Positions 3,070 to 20,428 of a stretch of 20,428 nt of DNA are shown in pieces. This stretch comes from a virus. Within the stretch, counting starts at the first letter, position 1. Every line of letters starts with the position of its first letter. The notes under the pieces are model-generated. The model did no database searches. It saw only the letters and a list, made by a program, of their open reading frames with translations, and was not told the origin of the DNA. A program made the position numbers and the translations under genes. Where the stretch lies: positions 1-20,428 of IMG/VR virus record IMGVR_UViG_3300037189_007598; one strand, written 5' to 3'.

Positions 3070-3669
3070 TCAGTTGTAAGCAACCTTTCTCCACCAGCAC
3101 CGCTGCACTCGCTGGAACTCCTCCGCATGGATCTCCTCCAGCTTCTCCTTACCCTTCTGCTCGTAGTACTCGCTCGTCTCGTTCTGCCCCGTGCTGCGCA
3201 GATACTCCGCCCGCGCCAGGTGCACCACCGCAGGCGCAATACTTGCCACCACCAGCAGCGACGTACTCGCCGCATCCGTAAACACCGACACCGCTGGCAG
3301 CCACAGCGCAAACACAGTCCCCAGTTCACTCTGCACCTGGATCCCGTCCGCACTCGTCACCGCCTGCAGCGCATACGCCACACTGTTCACCGGCCTCGGG
3401 TCCTCACTAAACAACAAAAACTTCCGCGCCTCACCCATCGCCGAGTACGCAATCAATCCATTCGTTGGCGTCAGCGGCCCATCCGCCCACGCATCCTCCC
3501 ACTCATTGCTGGTGTACGCCTCCTGATACGCCGTGTTCAGGCACCGCAGCAGTTGCGCCGTCAGCATAGCCGACACCCCACTCGCGTTGATCGCCGTGTC
3601 CGGCTCCTGCCCGCACGCGCGCGCCAGATCCCAAAACAGGTCCTTCACGCTCAGCTTCGTCCGACTCAT
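3070..3669 (-). CDS. Head-tail connector/adaptor-like protein (199 aa)
   Basis: The 199-residue protein begins MSRTKLSVKDLFWDLARACG and contains LNTAYQEAYTSNEWEDAW, a central beta-like region with GDARKFLLFSED-type spacing (here GEARKFLLFSEDPRPV), and a long C-terminal helix (YLRSTGQNETSEYYEQKGKE). Short helical start, beta middle and C-terminal helix are typical of phage adaptor or 'head-tail connector' proteins encoded after the capsid gene. The assignment rests on architecture and position, not on a clear signature. Its ATG overlaps the preceding gene's stop by four bases (ATGA), so the two are translationally coupled. Confidence 0.5.
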   Translation of the reverse strand: MSRTKLSVKDLFWDLARACGQEPDTAINASGVSAMLTAQLLRCLNTAYQEAYTSNEWEDAWADGPLTPTNGLIAYSAMGEARKFLLFSEDPRPVNSVAYALQAVTSADGIQVQSELGTVFALWLPAVSVFTDAASTSLLVVASIAPAVVHLARAEYLRSTGQNETSEYYEQKGKEKLEEIHAEEFQRVQRCWWRKVAYN

Positions 3670-4103: not shown

Positions 4104-4106
4104 CGT

Positions 4107-4180
4107 TTCTTCGTAGTGTAGTCCCGCCTTTAGGCGGTTCCGGTTCTTCGTAGTGTAGTCCCGCCTTTAGGCGGTTCCGG
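4107..4180. repeat. Perfect tandem 37-bp hairpin repeat (two copies)
   Basis: Two identical 37-bp units occupy 4107-4143 and 4144-4180. Each holds CCGCC-TTTA-GGCGG, a perfect 5-bp stem with TTTA loop, followed by TTCCGG. The layout matches the CACGC-TTTA-GCGTG element at 483-512 but with different, still complementary, stem bases. The tandem ends three bases before the start codon of the 4103 gene. Confidence 0.9.
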
Positions 4181-4251
4181 TCACCCATCACTCCCTCAAA
4201 CAAACGGCAGGGCCAGCCCTCCAGCCCCACCGCAAACTCTACCACGCCACC

Positions 4252-7098: not shown

Positions 7099-7132
7099 CA
7101 GAGCTCAGAGCATGCGCACCGCGTTCATCAAT

Positions 7133-7186
7133 TTTCAGTTTTCAATTTTCAGTTCTCAGTTCTCAGTTCTCAGTTCTCAGTCTCCG
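7133..7186. repeat. AGTTCTC tandem heptamer tract
   Basis: Four perfect heptamers (AGTTCTC) fill 7151-7178, preceded by diverged TTTTCAG/TTTTCAA copies. Degenerate versions occur near 590, 2345, 10438, 13001 and 18842, always in gaps. Here the tract lies just after the portal stop codon. Confidence 0.8.
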
Positions 7187-10540: not shown

Positions 10541-12559
10541 CTAAAAGCCCCGCCCCCGCCTCCCGCTCTTTCCCGCCCGCGCCTCATGCTCCGGCCCCGC
10601 ATTTAGCAAAATTCGCAGCGTATCAATCGGGTCTTTATACGCACTCCCACTCGCCCCCGGCACACTGAACCCCGGATAATTCTGCAGCGCCCCAATCAAG
10701 TTCGTACACCGCTCCGCAATCCGAATCTTCGGCCCCCGCCCCAACTGCGGATTCACCTCCATCCAGCCCGTCTTCGCATCGATGCTCGTGTTCTCCCGGT
10801 CCCACATCAGCATGCTGTTAATGTTCTGCTCACCCTCCAGCACACTGTTCGTCGCCGCATTCCCGCCCGCCTGGCTAAAATACAAATCGTTCTCTTCCAG
10901 CCACTCAATGATCGTCTTGCTCCCCTCCTGATTCTCCACCTCCGTGTTCGTACTCCGACTGTCCGAAATCCGCCGACCATACACATCGATCATGGTATTC
11001 TCCACCAGCCCCATCATTGACGTTACCCCCTGCTCCCGCGCCAGCTTCGCCTCAATCCGCCGGATCTCCGACGCCCGAAACCCATAGCCACACGGCCACT
11101 GCTTCTGCGCCGGTCCTTTCTCCCCCAGCCCACTCTTGCCCCCGTTCCGCGCCCACAAACAATCCTCCCCCGTGTACATCGCCGCCCCCGGCACCACCAC
11201 CGCATCACTCACCTGCGGATACTCATGCGCGATAATCAAGTCCCCCGGCCCCAGGTGATTCCACGCCTCGCCCAGCACAAAGCCCCATAGCTGAAACCAC
11301 GCCCGACCCCCGCTCGCGTTCGGGTCCTGGCTCATCCACCACGTCCCCAGCTCCGCAGGCGGCAGCCACCCCGGCACCGGCCGCACATGCACCTGCACAT
11401 GAAAATTCGGAAACGGACTGTCCGCCGTCCCCTCCGCCACCCCGTAGCACTTCCACAGCTTCTGCGCCCGCGTGCTTCCCATCTCCGTCCGCTTCATCCC
11501 CGCCCAGTTGCCCCCCAGCGGATTCTCCCACGCATACAACCACTTCACCCGCTTCGTCACATCCTTGCAGTGCACCAAGCACGGCAGCCGCTCCCCACCC
11601 ACCACCTCACCCGCATCATTGCGCCTCGGCAACAGTTCCGCATCCGCCTCAATCTCCCGCATCACCGTCCCCTCATCCATAAAATAACGCACCGTATCCG
11701 TGTAACCATCGCGAAACGTGTACGTCACCAAATGCACCGCCACCAGCAGCCGACCAATCAACTCCCTCGGAAACCACATCTCCCCATCCTGCGCCTTCGC
11801 CGCCTGCAGCTCACGCCATTTCGGTCCCATCTCATGCGTCCGCTCCGCCGCCGTCAGCAGTCGATTTTTCACCGCCTTCAGCACCACCACCGGCACCGCC
11901 TCATCACTCCACGCCGTCGTCGGCCTCGGCCCTTCCAGCTTGCCCACCTCCTGCGCCCACGTCTTGAACCGACACACCGCCCCCGTTTGCACCGCACACT
12001 CATTGTTCGTAAACCCCCCCGCCGCATCATAACCCATCTTTTGACTCGCCAGCTTCTTCATCCGACCACTCTCCGTCTTGTACTCCAGCGGCTGCCAGAA
12101 CCTCACCGCACTCTCCACCACCTCCGCCGATTTGTTATCATCAAAGCTAAACGTCCAAAACGTCCGCTGATGCTCCGGCCAGTCCAGCTCACACTGCTCC
12201 ATCGCCAGCGTCAGAAACCGCGCCACCATCTGGCTCTTGCCCGCCCCGTTCGACCCTGCCACCAAAAACTCCACCGGAATCCCCAGGTTCGCCAGCCGCA
12301 GATCCAGCAGCTCCCACAGCACATCATCCCAGCTCCTGAAAAACCACCCATGCGTATAGGGATCTTCCGCCGCCTTTCGAATCTCCTCCTCTCGCGCCTC
12401 CACCGCCGCCACCGCTTCCTCCTCCCCCAGCGCCATCAACTCCTCCACCGTCAGCGCCTCTCGCATCCCATGCGGCCGCTGCGTCCCCGCCAGCTCCTCA
12501 TACGCCAGCCGCTCAATCTCCGCCTCATCCAGCTCATCCAGCTCATCATGCTCAATCAT
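10541..12559 (-). CDS. terL: Terminase large subunit (672 aa)
   Basis: The ATPase has a Walker A motif AGSNGAGKS at residues 101-109 and a Walker B-like TTAWSDEA at 214-221 (Asp-Glu catalytic pair). The C-terminal nuclease part begins near WWMSQDPNA (Asp412) and continues with LVENTMIDVYGRRISDSRS. It cuts concatemers and drives DNA through the portal. The acidic N-terminus (HDELDELDEAEIE) is unusual. The ATG at 12559 follows GGGAGGATGTGGT, a strong ribosome binding site, and was preferred over a TTG five codons upstream. The site lies inside a 15-codon leader ORF whose stop overlaps this ATG (ATGA). A candidate small subunit lies two genes upstream. The C-terminus is Arg/Gly-rich (RAGKSGRRGRGF). 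Confidence 0.82.
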   Translation of the reverse strand: MIEHDELDELDEAEIERLAYEELAGTQRPHGMREALTVEELMALGEEEAVAAVEAREEEIRKAAEDPYTHGWFFRSWDDVLWELLDLRLANLGIPVEFLVAGSNGAGKSQMVARFLTLAMEQCELDWPEHQRTFWTFSFDDNKSAEVVESAVRFWQPLEYKTESGRMKKLASQKMGYDAAGGFTNNECAVQTGAVCRFKTWAQEVGKLEGPRPTTAWSDEAVPVVVLKAVKNRLLTAAERTHEMGPKWRELQAAKAQDGEMWFPRELIGRLLVAVHLVTYTFRDGYTDTVRYFMDEGTVMREIEADAELLPRRNDAGEVVGGERLPCLVHCKDVTKRVKWLYAWENPLGGNWAGMKRTEMGSTRAQKLWKCYGVAEGTADSPFPNFHVQVHVRPVPGWLPPAELGTWWMSQDPNASGGRAWFQLWGFVLGEAWNHLGPGDLIIAHEYPQVSDAVVVPGAAMYTGEDCLWARNGGKSGLGEKGPAQKQWPCGYGFRASEIRRIEAKLAREQGVTSMMGLVENTMIDVYGRRISDSRSTNTEVENQEGSKTIIEWLEENDLYFSQAGGNAATNSVLEGEQNINSMLMWDRENTSIDAKTGWMEVNPQLGRGPKIRIAERCTNLIGALQNYPGFSVPGASGSAYKDPIDTLRILLNAGPEHEARAGKSGRRGRGF

Positions 12560-12603
12560 ACCACATCCTCCCAAAATTTGCTATCGTTTGCCATTGTTTG
12601 CAT
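12556..12603 (-). CDS. Leader peptide MQTMANDSKFWEDVV overlapping terminase start
   Basis: A 15-codon ORF starts at 12603 and ends in TGA that overlaps the terminase ATG (ATGA). The terminase ribosome binding site GGAGG sits in its Trp-Glu-Asp codons. A near-identical peptide (MANDGKFWEDVV) ends upstream of the 13694 gene. Translation is not proved; the alternative is a conserved non-coding start cassette. Confidence 0.4.
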   Translation of the reverse strand: MQTMANDSKFWEDVV

Positions 12604-12653
12604 TGTTTGCAGTCGCCCCACCCAAGGTCACAGGGTCTCCCGACCCCGTTCCG
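12583..12653. repeat. Compound leader cassette (iterated GTTTGC + CCAAGGTCAC...CCCCGTTCCG)
   Basis: Tandem GTTTGCCATT, GTTTGCATT and GTTTGCAG units are followed by CCCAAGGTCACAGGGTCTCC and CGACCCCGTTCCG. The same two-part arrangement recurs at 13718-13773 and 16634-16692, each time upstream of a gene whose start overlaps a leader ORF. Confidence 0.75.
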
Positions 12654-12661
12654 ACCTCCCC

Positions 12662-12691
12662 GTACGTTGTTCACGCTTTAGAATGTTCCGG
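12662..12691. repeat. GTACGTTGTT hairpin repeat with decayed stem
   Basis: GTACGTTGTT-CACGC-TTTA-GAATG-TTCCGG: the left half is identical to the copy at 483-512, but the right stem arm no longer pairs. The repeat continues into GCTTTGGTCTCTCCCC. It abuts the compound cassette upstream of the terminase. Confidence 0.65.
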
Positions 12692-12733
12692 CTTTGGTCT
12701 CTCCCCAAAGATCCATACTTGGCAAGTCCGTTT

Positions 12734-12988
12734 TCACCGCAGTATTAAAAATACCGCTAGCGCCCCCAGGCCCGCGCCCAGGAAAAATGTTGTCAATACC
12801 AGCCAATACCAGTGCCTCCACGTCGCACCAATCACCTCCGGTTTTGTTCCCAAGATTCTATAAGAATCTGTCGTCTGACGCCGGCAAGGCACAGGCAGGT
12901 ATCCCTCAGCTAACAGCGCGTCACAGCATAATTCAAATTCACTCATCGGCACAGTCACAATAGGTTTTAAGTTTTTTCCGTTGTTCAT
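12734..12988 (-). CDS. Small membrane protein with C-terminal TM helix (84 aa)
   Basis: The first 58 residues are soluble (PMSEFELCCDALLAEGYLPV, PCRRQTTDSYRILGTKPE). Then WRHWYWLVLTTFFLGAGLGA leads into ALAVFLILR, one transmembrane helix ending at the C-terminus. This is the topology of tail-anchored proteins. It sits between the candidate small terminase and the large terminase. A holin- or spanin-like role, superinfection exclusion, or a morphogenesis role are possible, with nothing decisive. The ATG at 12988 follows an AT-rich AGTTCCC-type repeat and lacks a clear ribosome binding site. Confidence 0.6.
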   Translation of the reverse strand: MNNGKNLKPIVTVPMSEFELCCDALLAEGYLPVPCRRQTTDSYRILGTKPEVIGATWRHWYWLVLTTFFLGAGLGALAVFLILR

Positions 12989-13049
12989 AAATTTACAATT
13001 CCCAGTTTTCAGTTCCCAGTTTTCAATCTCCGATCATTCCCTTGCTCCT

Positions 13050-13694
13050 TCATTCCCTTGCCAAATTCTCCCCTTCCTTTTCCCCCACCGCTTCCACCAC
13101 CCCCACCTCCTCCGTCACCTTCTCCGGCAGCACCTCCACCACCGGCCCCACCTCGCGCACCTTCACCTTCTCCCGCGCTTTCTGCCGAAACTTCTCAAAC
13201 GCCGACACCCCTCCCTCCTGCACCTTCCCACTGATCCGCGTCGGCCCCCCACTGTGCAACTGCAGCACCTCATTGATGGACTTCACCGCGATCGACACAC
13301 TCCCCAGGTGCTTTGTCTCATCCGCCCCACACGCCTCGATCATCTCCCGCGCCTTCACAATCCCCTCACTCACCGTCGCCAGTCCCTCCGCCACAATGAT
13401 CGCCTTCCGCTCCTCCGCCGGAATCTTCCGCCGGATCAATCCCCGAATGATGCTGTGCAGCGCCTTCTTCTCCTCCGTCGTGTTCCGCCCACACAGCGGC
13501 CCCGCCAAATCCGCAATCGCCGTCACACTCACCACACCCCCCCGATACAATCCCACCATGAACTCCGCCACCTCCCGGTGATCCCGTTCAAACCGTTCCC
13601 CCGTATGCACCCGCCACGCCATCACCACCGGTGCCTCCTCCACCTCCAGCCCCAGCTCCGTCCTCATCATCAGTCCCTCATCATTCGCATTCAT
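13050..13694 (-). CDS. Candidate small terminase subunit / HTH DNA-binding protein (214 aa)
   Basis: The 214-residue protein has an N-terminal helical region with an HTH-like order (HREVAEFMVGLYRGG, VVSVTAIADLAGPLCG). A helical oligomerisation-like region follows (VAEGLATVSEGIVKAREMIE) and then LGSVSIAVKSINEVLQLHSG with GPTRISG, a layout seen in small terminases and related packaging regulators. The C-terminus is a charged Glu/Val tail. Position upstream of the large terminase supports packaging. A transcription regulator is the main alternative. ATG at 13694 follows GGGAGGATGTGGT, identical to the terminase leader, and overlaps a leader ORF stop. Confidence 0.45.
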   Translation of the reverse strand: MNANDEGLMMRTELGLEVEEAPVVMAWRVHTGERFERDHREVAEFMVGLYRGGVVSVTAIADLAGPLCGRNTTEEKKALHSIIRGLIRRKIPAEERKAIIVAEGLATVSEGIVKAREMIEACGADETKHLGSVSIAVKSINEVLQLHSGGPTRISGKVQEGGVSAFEKFRQKAREKVKVREVGPVVEVLPEKVTEEVGVVEAVGEKEGENLARE

Positions 13695-13795
13695 ACCACA
13701 TCCTCCCAGAATTTACCATCGTTTGCCATCGCCCACACCCCCAAGGTCACGGAGTCTCCCGACCCCGTTCCGGTTCTTCCTTCGTCAACCCTCAT
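13691..13795 (-). CDS. Leader ORF ending MANDGKFWEDVV, overlapping next start
   Basis: The 34-codon frame starts at 13795, reads through the CCGGAACGGGGTCGGGAG-type repeat (giving GTGSGDSVTLG) and ends MANDGKFWEDVV with TGA overlapping the ATG of the 13694 gene. The last 12 residues match the terminase leader except Gly/Ser. A shorter translation from the ATG of MAND is equally possible. Coding is inferred, not proved. Confidence 0.35.
   Translation of the reverse strand: MRVDEGRTGTGSGDSVTLGVWAMANDGKFWEDVV
13718..13773. repeat. Compound leader cassette, second copy
   Basis: ATCGTTTGCCATCG is followed by CCCCAAGGTCACGGAGTCTC and CCGACCCCGTTCCGG. It has fewer GTTTGC units than the copy upstream of the terminase. 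It forms most of the 34-codon leader ORF of the 13694 gene. Confidence 0.75.
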
Positions 13796-14319: not shown

Positions 14320-14931
14320 TTACCTTCCTCCCATCATCACCCCCAGCCGTTTCCTCAAAATCCTCAACCCCCGGCTCTCAATCTGCCGCACCCGCTCCCG
14401 CGTCAGCCCCAGCCCCAGCACCTCATTCACCTCCCGAAACGTCGGCACCCCCCATGAAAACCGCTGCCGGATCACACTTCGCATCGGCTCTTTCAATCCA
14501 TCCACGGCCGCCCACAGCCGCTCCTGCTCATCCTCCCCCGCCGCCTCCTCATCCACCTCCGCAGGCGCTGCCAGCACATCCGCCAAGCAGAACACATGCC
14601 CGCCCCCATCATTCCCGCCCGACCCCAACGGCTCGTCCAACCCACTCACAAACACCCGCACCCCCTCACGCGCCCGTTTCACCGGCACACGCACCAAATC
14701 CCGCCGGTACTCAATCCAGCGCAGCACACGGCTCTTGATGCACCAGCACGCATACGTACTGAACTTTGCACCCGCACTCTCCACAAATCGCTCCGCCGCA
14801 TACAACAACCCCAGCCGCCCTTCCTGCGCCGCATCCTCCACATCCCGCTCCATCACCATCCGCCGCACCACATGCTGCACCACATGCTGCACCAGCCCCT
14901 CATTCTCCATCAAGATCCGTTCCGCATTCAT
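14320..14931 (-). CDS. Sigma-70 family RNA polymerase sigma factor
   Basis: The product is 203 residues from the ATG at 14931. Sigma region 2 is clear: VEDAAQEGRLGLLYAAERF at about 31-49, then AKFSTYACWCIKSRVLRWI at 55-73 (core-binding and -10 recognition). Region 4.2 lies near the C-terminus as LTRERVRQIESRGLRILRKR (176-195), close to the consensus of primary sigma factors and contacting the -35 element. Region 3 is replaced by a short acidic linker. It would redirect host RNA polymerase, probably to phage genes, and sits just after the helicase. ATGs at 14934 and, through a repeat, 14961 (MGEQKNLEL) are alternative starts. The final GVMMGGR lies next to repeat-like ATGATGGG sequence. Confidence 0.85.
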   Translation of the reverse strand: MNAERILMENEGLVQHVVQHVVRRMVMERDVEDAAQEGRLGLLYAAERFVESAGAKFSTYACWCIKSRVLRWIEYRRDLVRVPVKRAREGVRVFVSGLDEPLGSGGNDGGGHVFCLADVLAAPAEVDEEAAGEDEQERLWAAVDGLKEPMRSVIRQRFSWGVPTFREVNEVLGLGLTRERVRQIESRGLRILRKRLGVMMGGR

Positions 14932-14956
14932 CATCAGTTCTAAGTTTTTTTGTTCT

Positions 14957-14994
14957 CCCATCTTTCACCGCCCATTTTTCTGCCGGCCCTCCGG
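14957..14994. repeat. Dispersed double repeat in helicase-sigma gap
   Basis: Full form: CCCATCTTTCACCGCC, CATTTTTCTGCCGGCC and CTCCGG tail. On the minus strand it supplies the ATGGGAG that opens the longer possible reading of the sigma factor. Confidence 0.75.
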
Positions 14995-15024: not shown

Positions 15025-16614
15025 TCAAAACCCACCCAGCACCACCTGCTTAAACTTCGGGTTATTGCTGTACATCTTCAGCGTCCTCCCCTGAAACCGC
15101 TGCAAGTTCATCCGATACCGCAGCACAATATCATCCGGCGTCGCCCCATTCCGGTTCTTCGTGATGATAAACCGCGCATGCTCCTCGTAGTCCCGCTGAT
15201 ACGCATACACCTCGGCCGGCAACCCGCGCCCATCGTGCCACGCCTCCGGAAAATCCCGCCGGTACATATCCGTCACCTGCTGCCACCGCTCCTGCGTCTC
15301 CTCATTCAGCGCCGCCCACGGCCGCACCACCACTGGCCGATGAATAAACGCCACCATCGTCGGGTACTCAATCATCTCCCCCGCACCCTTCACATCCCCA
15401 TTCCCCGGCGCCTTGTTCCGCTCCTGCTTTTCCCGACCCTCTTTTGTCAACTGCACAAACAGCACAATCGTGATCCCCAGCGTTCGCCTCAACTCATGCA
15501 GCGTCTCCATGATCTCAATCTGCCCCCGCACCTTGTCTCCCTTCCCCTCCTTCGTGCTCGGCCTCAACTGCCCAAAGTGATCAATGAACACCACCTTCAC
15601 CCCATGCCGCCGCACCATCATCGTCACCCGCGCCCGAAACTCATCGCAGTCGCAAAAACTCGAATCATCCCAAAAAATCGGCGCCGCCGCAAAATCCTTC
15701 TGCGCCTGCGCGATCGCCCCCAGCGCCTCCCGCGCCAGGTGCCCATTCCGACTCACCGAAATATCCACCCCCGCCCGACCCAGCACCAACCGGTGCCCCC
15801 AGCCCACCTTCCCCATCTCCAGCGGAAACACCCCACACGCCACCCCCTGATCCACCGCCATACTCTCCAGCAAACTCACCGCCGCCCCCGTCTTACCCAT
15901 CCCCGGAAAACCCCCAATCATCAGCAGCTCACCCTGCCCATCCGGATTCAACCCATGAAACGTCCGGTCCACATCCACCCAGCCCGTCCGCACCCCCAGC
16001 ACCTTGCCCCGATTATCACAAATCGTCTGAAACGCATCCAGCCACTCCCCCACCATCTCCTTCGAATCCACAATCCGCGCCCCCGTCCCTTTCCCCTGGA
16101 ACGCATCCAGCACCTGAAACGTCCGACTCTCCGCCCGACTCAGCAGCCCCCCCACCGTCTCCTCATCCCCATGATCTTGATGCGCAAACGCCTCATGCAA
16201 ATTCAGCGTACTCGCATGAATGCTTTGCCTCAGCATCCACTTGTCCCGCACAATCTGCGTGTAATACGGATAATGTGAAGCAATCGGCACAAACCCAAAC
16301 AACTCCGACACCGCCGCCGCACCCCCGGCCTGGTCTAGCAACCCCCGATCCCGCAGCAAATGCGTCAAACTCGGCGGATCAAACGGCAACCCCTTCTGCT
16401 CACACTCAATCATCAGCTCATACATCAGCCGATTCCCCGGATGATAAAACGCCTCCGGCGGCAGCACCATCCGCGTCTCCACCACCCGCTCCGCCGGCTC
16501 CTGCAGCAAGCAGCTCAGCACCCCCTTTTCCGCCTCATCACTAAACGGCATCGGCTGATTCAGCTTCGGCAGCAGCTCCTCCGTCGTCACCCCCTTTTCT
16601 TTTCGCTCACTCAT
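15025..16614 (-). CDS. dnaB: DnaB-type replicative helicase (529 aa)
   Basis: The N-terminal domain begins with PMPFSDEAEKGVLSCLLQEP (21-40), the primase-interacting DnaB start. The RecA-like domain has Walker A GGFPGMGKT at 234-242, a FPLEM segment at 263-267, Walker B VVFIDHFGQL at 341-350, IVLFVQLTKE near 383-392 with Gln388, and the late KNRNG motif in RFIITKNRNGATPDD. Length is slightly above the usual 450-480 residues, mainly from a loop with ERNKAPGNGDVKGAGEMIEY and a following insertion. It unwinds DNA at the phage fork, probably loaded by the DUF1376 protein next door. The ATG at 16614 overlaps the stop of a 10-codon leader (ATGA), and AGGATATGATCTGGT provides a distant ribosome binding site. 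Confidence 0.88.
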   Translation of the reverse strand: MSERKEKGVTTEELLPKLNQPMPFSDEAEKGVLSCLLQEPAERVVETRMVLPPEAFYHPGNRLMYELMIECEQKGLPFDPPSLTHLLRDRGLLDQAGGAAAVSELFGFVPIASHYPYYTQIVRDKWMLRQSIHASTLNLHEAFAHQDHGDEETVGGLLSRAESRTFQVLDAFQGKGTGARIVDSKEMVGEWLDAFQTICDNRGKVLGVRTGWVDVDRTFHGLNPDGQGELLMIGGFPGMGKTGAAVSLLESMAVDQGVACGVFPLEMGKVGWGHRLVLGRAGVDISVSRNGHLAREALGAIAQAQKDFAAAPIFWDDSSFCDCDEFRARVTMMVRRHGVKVVFIDHFGQLRPSTKEGKGDKVRGQIEIMETLHELRRTLGITIVLFVQLTKEGREKQERNKAPGNGDVKGAGEMIEYPTMVAFIHRPVVVRPWAALNEETQERWQQVTDMYRRDFPEAWHDGRGLPAEVYAYQRDYEEHARFIITKNRNGATPDDIVLRYRMNLQRFQGRTLKMYSNNPKFKQVVLGGF

Positions 16615-16643
16615 ACCAGATCATATCCTTTCACAGTTTGCAT
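16611..16643 (-). CDS. Leader peptide MQTVKGYDLV overlapping helicase start
   Basis: A 10-codon ORF ends in TGA that overlaps the helicase ATG (ATGA). Its start MQT and end D-[LV]-V are shared with the terminase leader MQTMANDSKFWEDVV. The AGGA of the helicase ribosome binding site is inside it. Expression is not proved. Confidence 0.35.
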   Translation of the reverse strand: MQTVKGYDLV

Positions 16644-16692
16644 TGTTTGCAGTCGCCTACCCAAGGTCACGGAGTCTCCCGACCCCGTTCCG
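16634..16692. repeat. Compound leader cassette, third copy
   Basis: GTTTGCATT and GTTTGCAG are followed by CCCAAGGTCACGGAGTCTCC and CGACCCCGTTCCG. The repeat overlaps the end of the DUF1376 gene and gives it its last residues (ERGRETP) and TGA stop. Confidence 0.8.
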
Positions 16693-17695: not shown

Positions 17696-17724
17696 CAGAC
17701 CAATCCCCCATTTCTCTCAGCCAT
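17695..17724 (-). CDS. Leader peptide MAERNGGLV overlapping DUF1376 start
   Basis: A 9-codon ORF begins right after the TTTGAACTTT repeat and ends in TGA sharing its A with the ATG of the DUF1376 gene. The position after TTTGAACTTTT mirrors the start of the 17997 gene. It ends in Leu-Val, like the helicase leader. Coding is uncertain. Confidence 0.3.
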   Translation of the reverse strand: MAERNGGLV

Positions 17725-17790
17725 AAAAGTTCAAAGTTCAAAGTTCAAAATCCCTCATCTTTCACCGCCCATCTTTCTGCCGGCCTCCGG
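17724..17790. repeat. Composite repeat: AAAGTTC tract plus CCCATCTTT double unit
   Basis: Three AAAGTTC heptamers (17724-17750) are followed by CATCTTTCACCGCC and CATCTTTCTGCCGGC with a CTCCGG tail. The second part lies inside the 3' end of the 17755 gene. Confidence 0.8.
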
Positions 17791-17997
17791 TTCAGGCACC
17801 CCATTCCGCGCCACCTGCACCTCCGCCGCCACCAGCGCCCGTTTCAGCACCCGCACCGCCAAATGCGCCGACTTCCGCCCCGTCATCGTCGCCTCATCCC
17901 CCACCGGCAGCTCAATCGTCACCACCGGCCAGATCCCACCCCCCGCACGCCGTTCCCCCACCACCACACACAAAGCATTTTCATTCATCTCACCCAT
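17755..17997 (-). CDS. Unknown small protein with repeat-derived C-terminus (80 aa)
   Basis: The 80-residue product starts MGEMNENALCVVVGERRAGG and continues WPVVTIELPVGDEATMTGRK and AVRVLKRALVAAEVQ, an apparent beta-beta-alpha layout. Its final EPEAGRKMGGER and TGA are written by the CCCATCTTTCTGCCGGC repeat, so the original gene end has been replaced or extended. No family was recognised. It lies between an HTH-like protein and the DUF1376 gene. Confidence 0.55.
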   Translation of the reverse strand: MGEMNENALCVVVGERRAGGGIWPVVTIELPVGDEATMTGRKSAHLAVRVLKRALVAAEVQVARNGVPEPEAGRKMGGER

Positions 17998-18058
17998 AAA
18001 AGTTCAAAGTTTAAAGTTCAAAATCCCCATCTTTTACCGCCCATCTTTTACCAGCCCC
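17998..18058. repeat. Composite repeat: AAAGTTC tract plus CCCATCTTTTACC double unit
   Basis: AAAGTTCAAAGTTTAAAGTTC is truncated here to positions 17998-18023, followed by two CCCATCTTTTACC units. The order of the two families is the same as at 17724-17790. It fills most of the gap between the HTH-like gene and the 17997 start. Confidence 0.8.
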
Positions 18059-18079: not shown

Positions 18080-18307
18080 TCAAAGCGTCCCCTCCAAATC
18101 AAACCCCAGCTCCTGCGCCCACCGCCTCAGCACCTTCCGCGTCGTCCTCAGCCGCTTCAACATCACCGCCGCCGAATACCCCGCCCGCCGCTGACACTTA
18201 AACGTCCGCAGCACCTTCAGCCGATCCACCGCATCCACCCGCCGCTTCTGCGCATGCACCGACCTCGTCTTATCCTTCTGCACATCCACCCAATTTCGCT
18301 CACTCAT
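18080..18307 (-). CDS. HTH-like small basic protein (75 aa)
   Basis: The 75-residue product is very basic (VHAQKRRVDAVDRLKVLRTF) and its middle (RRAGYSAAVMLKRLRTTRKV followed by LRRWAQELGFDLEG) has the helix-turn-helix look of a small DNA-binding domain. It may regulate phage transcription or bind DNA at replication genes that follow. The evidence is composition and helix spacing only. ATG at 18307 was preferred over the TTG at 18310. It lies behind TTTGAACTTTG repeat sequence and has no clear Shine-Dalgarno. Confidence 0.5.
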   Translation of the reverse strand: MSERNWVDVQKDKTRSVHAQKRRVDAVDRLKVLRTFKCQRRAGYSAAVMLKRLRTTRKVLRRWAQELGFDLEGTL

Positions 18308-18352
18308 CAAAGTTCAAAGTTTAAAGTTCAAAGTTCAAAATCCCCATCTATT
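18308..18352. repeat. AAAGTTC tract with single CCCATCT unit
   Basis: AAAGTTC heptamers (four, one with TTTAAAG) are followed by CCCCATCTATTTGCC. It fills the whole 49-bp gap between the 18357 stop and the 18307 start. Confidence 0.8.
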
Positions 18353-19779: not shown

Positions 19780-20428
19780 CAGTTCACAAACGGACACCTC
19801 CCTAGGTCCGCCAAAATCGTCCGCTTCAAGGAGCCTAGTTTGCTCTCATCCTGCTTCCACGGCTCATGTAGCGCCACCACCCACCAGCGTTCACCCCGCC
19901 ATAGCTGCGGGTTCAACGTCGCATGCAGCGCCTGGTGGCAGCACAACTTCAGCGGCCCCGGAATCACCTCCTCAAGACCCACCACCGCCCGCGTTCCAGT
20001 TCCCCCGTTGGCCGGTTGCCCGTCCCTCGTTGACCTCCAAAACGCCGCCACCGTGCCGCTTTGCTGGTAAGGCTCCAGCAAAGCCGCAAAATACCGCGCC
20101 TGATCCGCATCGTCGCCGTCGCCGGAGCCGTAGCCGTAGCCGTCGCCGTCGCCGGAGCCGTAGCCGTCGCCGTAGCCGTAGCCGTAGCCGTAGCCGTAGC
20201 CGTCGCCGTAGCCGTAGCCGTCGCCGGAGCCGTAGCCGTAGCCGGAGCCGTCGCCGTAGCCGTAGCCGTCGCCGGAGCCGGAGCCGGAGCCGGAGCCGTA
20301 GCCGTCGCCGTCGCCGTCGCCGTAGCCGTCGCCGTAGCCGTCGCCGGAGCCGTCGCCGGAGCCGGAGCCGGAGCCGTAGCCGGAGCCGGAGCCGTAGCCG
20401 GAGCCGGAGCCGGAGCCGGAGCCGTAGC
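19779..20428 (-). CDS. Gly-X repeat protein with conserved C-terminal domain (5' end outside window)
   Basis: The frame enters at the right edge and ends at the TGA at 19779. Its first 105 or so visible residues are Gly alternating with Tyr, Ser or Asp (53 X positions, 20 Tyr, 18 Ser, 15 Asp), all Gly being GGC. A globular C-terminal domain of about 110 residues follows: DDADQARYFAALLEPYQQSG, GLEEVIPGPLKLCCHQALHA, TLNPQLWRGERWWVVALHE and LGSLKRTILADLGRCPF. The 'LKLC-xx-ALHAT-xP-xxWxGxRxWxVAL' order resembles small domains of unknown function found in phage-associated proteins, but I cannot name it with confidence. No signal peptide can be seen because the start is missing. An annotation beginning at the internal ATG-like start near 20081 would miss the repeat. 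Confidence 0.7.
   Translation of the reverse strand, partial: YGSGSGSGSGYGSGSGYGSGSGSGDGSGDGYGDGYGDGDGDGYGSGSGSGSGDGYGYGDGSGYGYGSGDGYGYGDGYGYGYGYGYGDGYGSGDGDGYGYGSGDGDDADQARYFAALLEPYQQSGTVAAFWRSTRDGQPANGGTGTRAVVGLEEVIPGPLKLCCHQALHATLNPQLWRGERWWVVALHEPWKQDESKLGSLKRTILADLGRCPFVN
20112..20428 (-). repeat. Hexanucleotide array GGC-TAC / GGC-TCC / GGC-GAC (about 53 units)
   Basis: Every hexamer is GGC plus one of TAC, TCC or GAC on the minus strand; no other codon occurs. Order is irregular. Ser units dominate at the protein's N-terminal side (20340-20428), Tyr units at 20160-20220. The array runs off the window edge, so true length is unknown. Confidence 0.95.

Follow-up and report, generated by a model that had tools for sequence, protein, structure and literature searches.

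Two near-identical leader ORFs overlapping the starts of the large terminase (TerL) gene and of the gene at 13694 are just the 3'-terminal part of a longer element, which occurs three times in the 20,428-nucleotide stretch analysed here (the window, a viral record). We consider it likely that the leaders make up the 3' portion of a 5'-UTR cassette that is derived from dispersed repeats and carried in three copies by a probable Verrucomicrobia phage. Its parts would be a REP-like hairpin of the host, the GCAAACNATN microrepeat and an 18-nt Shine-Dalgarno/start-codon segment, the last of these in the TerL and TerS-like copies.

Cassette copies in the window

The 39-nt ORFs MANDSKFWEDVV (12556–12594, minus strand) and MANDGKFWEDVV (13691–13729, minus strand) end in ATGA at the TerL and TerS-like gene starts, respectively. 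At the DNA level, the TerL start (ATG 12559) is preceded by ATGGCAAACGATAGCAAATTTTGGGAGGATGTGGTATGA (12594–12556, minus strand) and ATG 13694 of the TerS-like gene by ATGGCAAACGATGGTAAATTCTGGGAGGATGTGGTATGA (13729–13691, minus strand). The first-pass annotation had reported three differences over the 39 bases, a TGA overlapping the next ATG and a ribosome-binding site within the Trp-Glu-Asp codons, and the sequence reads as it stated: AGC/GGT accounts for two of the differing positions and the silent TTT/TTC for one, the TGA of each leader overlaps the downstream ATG, and GGGAGG lies within the Trp-Glu-Asp codons of both. Since dinucleotide shuffles give an expectation of 0 matches, the similarity of the two leaders is not due to chance. 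Being copies of a single sequence, they do not count as two independent observations. An in-frame ATG 9 nt upstream of the MANDSKFWEDVV start gives MQTMANDSKFWEDVV, and the MANDGKFWEDVV frame is open upstream, with its first ATG further 5' (34 codons).

The same annotation called the two downstream genes packaging genes, a description that holds in part. The window TerL (10541–12559, minus strand; downstream of copy 1) has no PHROG match and no significant Pfam match; it aligns at 29% identity with a prophage protein that scores above the cut-off for Terminase_6N, so that its probable identity as a terminase comes through homology. The TerS-like gene (13050–13694, minus strand) can be called TerS by position only. 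Its product is about 30% identical to that of the gene preceding TerL in relatives, which were recovered by their position beside TerL, a pattern search having found none.

Shortly upstream of each leader stands a conserved stretch, GGAACGGGGTCGGGAGACYCYGTGACCTTGGG, with three copies in the window, the third of them before dnaB. This block is as well conserved upstream of both leaders as the leaders themselves and lies outside the leader ORF. Every copy folds as an 8-bp hairpin, ACGGGGTC-GGGA-GACYCYGT, with a GGGA loop, and the differences between copies retain pairing via G-U pairs. On the minus strand, copy 1 (TerL; ACGGGGTC-GGGA-GACCCTGT) occupies 12630–12649, copy 2 (TerS-like; ACGGGGTC-GGGA-GACTCCGT) 13749–13768, and copy 3 (DnaB; ACGGGGTC-GGGA-GACTCCGT), which the first-pass annotation missed, 16669–16688.

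Between the hairpin and the Shine-Dalgarno sequence lies the GCAAACNATN (GCAAAC) microrepeat, which reads GCAAACAATGCAAACAATGGCAAACGATAGCAAA before TerL (12577–12610, minus strand) and is also dispersed in Verrucomicrobia genomes. It underlies the MAND residues of the leader peptides. Before the gene for the DnaB-like replicative helicase (15025–16614, minus strand; downstream of copy 3), the microrepeat GCAAACAATGCAAAC and the ORF MQTVKGYDLV together span 16611–16650 on the minus strand, the ORF (16643–16611) overlapping the DnaB ATG at 16614. This peptide is unrelated to MAND(S/G)KFWEDVV; the hairpin and microrepeat are shared with the other copies. A search of the window against Rfam returned no match, no tRNAs were found in the window, and the phage and plasmid collections searched gave no match.

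Other repeats are present in the window as well. Another intergenic motif, GCCGGCAGAAARATGGGCGGYRAAAGATG, is dispersed in front of several phage genes (10441–10494, 14934–14987, 17731–17784, 18005–18052, 19185–19232 and 13818–13871); it occurs seven times in the prophage region of genome G291 and also in viral contigs L003 and L004, and is absent elsewhere in G291 at up to three mismatches. Short tandem repeats of the GAACTGAGAACTGAAAACTG and TTGAACTTTGAACTTT types are located at or near gene starts (2326–2368, 7123–7179, 12983–13025, 17709–17754, 17982–18027 and 18292–18337), and a tandem CCGCCTAAAGGCGGGACTACACTACGAAGAA repeat (4104–4181) precedes the 4103 gene. The window end (20043–20428) carries an imperfect 6-nt-based repeat of the GGAGCC/GTAGCC type with spacings of 12 and 18, possibly the coding repeats of a truncated gene.

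The cassette in a prophage and its parts in Verrucomicrobia genomes

The block also occurs in a prophage on contig C63 of G291; it is absent from every other genome among the 48 searched in the genus. The proteins of this prophage and of the window phage are far diverged (DnaB 38%, TerL 26% in the best segment, portal 23% and MCP 26% identical), TerL being about 29% identical. Many short stretches nevertheless match at 77–100% DNA identity. Matches that are mostly intergenic number 55 of 74, against an intergenic share of 9.6% of the region. The prophage TerL gene, whose product matches Terminase_6N, is preceded by the hairpin, the microrepeat and GCAAACGATGGTAAACTCTGGGAGGATGTGGTATGA, which agrees with the window TerS copy at 35 of 36 bases. 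Here the position of the leader ATG reads ACT; the frame stays open (TANDGKLWEDVV), and an in-frame GTG precedes the ACT by one codon. From GCAAACGAT to the TGA, three copies are identical save for the Ser/Gly and Phe/Leu codons.

Hairpins are found within prophage coding sequence too. The TerL gene has an in-frame insert of about 45–50 residues in which a second repeat accompanies a hairpin copy, and the portal gene contains two more in-frame hairpin copies; in L085, the in-frame copies are at 3274 and 3331 (portal gene) and 5435 (TerL gene). A repeat related to CCGCCTAAAGGCGGGACTACACTACGAAGAA is part of the TerL insert. It appears that these elements have entered coding as well as untranslated DNA of the phages.

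Closer relatives of either terminase lack the block. Fifteen viral contigs carry a TerL 71–74% identical to that of the window; in the 14 that include the upstream region, this region differs and the leader block is absent from it. Two contigs with a TerL 65–70% identical to that of the prophage have neither the block nor the in-frame TerL insert. Since terminase relatives at 65–74% identity are without the block, it was probably acquired recently, as judged from these comparisons. Two further candidates were discarded: exact matches to the Shine-Dalgarno segment in three viral contigs (two distinct contexts) are unrelated and near chance expectation, and one GACTGCAAACAATGCAAAC match among viral contigs falls within a protein-coding gene that belongs to an unrelated phage.

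A scan of the genomes of 84,980 bacterial and archaeal species with the 22-base hairpin pattern matched only two Verrucomicrobia MAGs. An extended pattern matched 11 of 39 genomes of one genus at up to 29 places per genome (reversed control, 0). At three or fewer mismatches, 17 places were counted in G001, 29 in G291 and 10 in G316, the reversed control again giving 0. Among 289 genomes sampled from the phylum, a match at two mismatches was confined to the centre genome, G001. The hairpins of host genomes occur in both orientations. The microrepeat is likewise dispersed in G291 (25 places vs. 0 in the control), where its period in intergenic DNA is about 10 nt, a spacing ill-suited to a coding frame. 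Both the hairpin and the microrepeat are noncoding repeats dispersed in the genomes of Verrucomicrobia. In G001, G291 and G316 the hairpins adjoin a Y1_Tnp (RAYT-like) gene, on both sides of it in G291; the three neighbourhoods are one orthologous locus, a single observation preserved in three genomes. The location of the hairpins by a RAYT-like transposase gene suggests a REP-like element.

Outside the prophage, host DNA did not yield the complete cassette with its Shine-Dalgarno segment, and we infer both its assembly and its spread. The shared repeats and the related prophage point to Verrucomicrobia as the probable host of the window phage.

Start cassette, leader peptide or regulatory site

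According to the explanation that we prefer, the same cassette would have come to stand before far-diverged genes through the insertion of repeats and through recombination among phages of one host lineage. Its working role would be to supply an efficient ribosome-binding site, while the hairpin may insulate or stabilise the 5' end. The leader peptide would then be an incidental reading of the microrepeat and the Shine-Dalgarno segment, and is probably incidental. A conserved non-coding start cassette had been offered in the first-pass annotation as the alternative to a peptide, and the data favour it over the peptide reading. A wider generalisation can be put forward tentatively, and is in our opinion rather unlikely: hairpin, microrepeat and Shine-Dalgarno start would make up a portable 5'-UTR module that diverged Verrucomicrobia phages exchange and recruit to packaging and replication genes, with expression signals spreading separately from the genes under their control.

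The peptide reading favoured in the first-pass annotation, now weakened, holds that an ORF of 12–15 codons is translated, opening the region and allowing re-initiation at the ATGA of TerL, TerS and DnaB. All three window cassettes do contain an ATG-started ORF of at least 10 codons ending exactly in ATGA, and the Shine-Dalgarno segment lies inside the leader ORF. However, shuffled upstream sequence yields such ORFs in 8–10% of cases per site, the copies are not independent, and ATGA starts are frequent in the window (11 of the 23 listed gene starts). No frameshift or stop inside the leader, which that annotation had named as evidence against the peptide, was found: all four copies keep an open frame, a GTG start being available in the prophage copy. 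Against this, ACT replaces the leader ATG in the prophage copy and the DnaB-copy peptide is unrelated. Among the codon differences between copies, three of four are nonsynonymous, a comparison of little power with only four copies, three of which share a genome. No strong Shine-Dalgarno sequence for the leader itself is visible by eye. The idea that structure hides the downstream Shine-Dalgarno sequence was rejected, as the predicted pairing does not occlude it consistently (mean unpaired probability of 0.44–0.60). Taken together, translational coupling through a leader peptide seems improbable to us.

It is highly unlikely that the hairpin is a regulatory site, either an operator or a phage-sigma promoter element co-regulating TerL, TerS and DnaB: three hairpin copies do stand at similar distances before three phage genes and the phage encodes a sigma-70-family factor (14320–14961), but the same hairpin occurs in both orientations in host genomes and inside the prophage TerL and portal coding sequences, so an invasive repeat fits better than a dedicated operator.

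Known systems and significance

REP elements associated with RAYT transposases are palindromes tagged with GTAG or CGTC (PMC3733652), and REP-type repeats have been reported to be abundant in the verrucomicrobium O. terrae (PMC3733652). The hairpins described here are similarly short (20–40 nt), palindromic, multicopy, present in both orientations and sometimes in tandem, with copies beside a Y1_Tnp gene. They differ from REP elements in that the phage copies have no conserved GTAG/CGTC tag: the window copies read GTGACC after the stem, and many host copies read CCCCGTC, with CGT belonging to the stem. They also differ in being located inside phage 5' UTRs and phage genes, and their mobilisation by the RAYT is putative.

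In coupled phage gene pairs, as here, the TGA of the upstream frame overlaps the next ATG and the Shine-Dalgarno sequence lies inside the upstream frame; in the relative L008, TerS itself appears, as read from the sequence, to end in ATGA at the TerL start. The upstream frame of the cassette, however, is a short ORF made by a repeat and not a conserved gene. Attenuator leader peptides of the trp/erm type share with the cassette a short ORF before a gene, but the leaders of the window have no run of regulatory codons and their start codon is not conserved.

A short ORF in front of a phage gene is easily mistaken for a regulatory peptide; in this case conservation is better explained by the spread of a repeat. 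If confirmed, these data would mean that host REP-like repeats invade phage genomes, entering untranslated leaders as well as the coding sequences of terminase and portal genes, and that shared intergenic repeats tie uncultured phages to a Verrucomicrobia host lineage.
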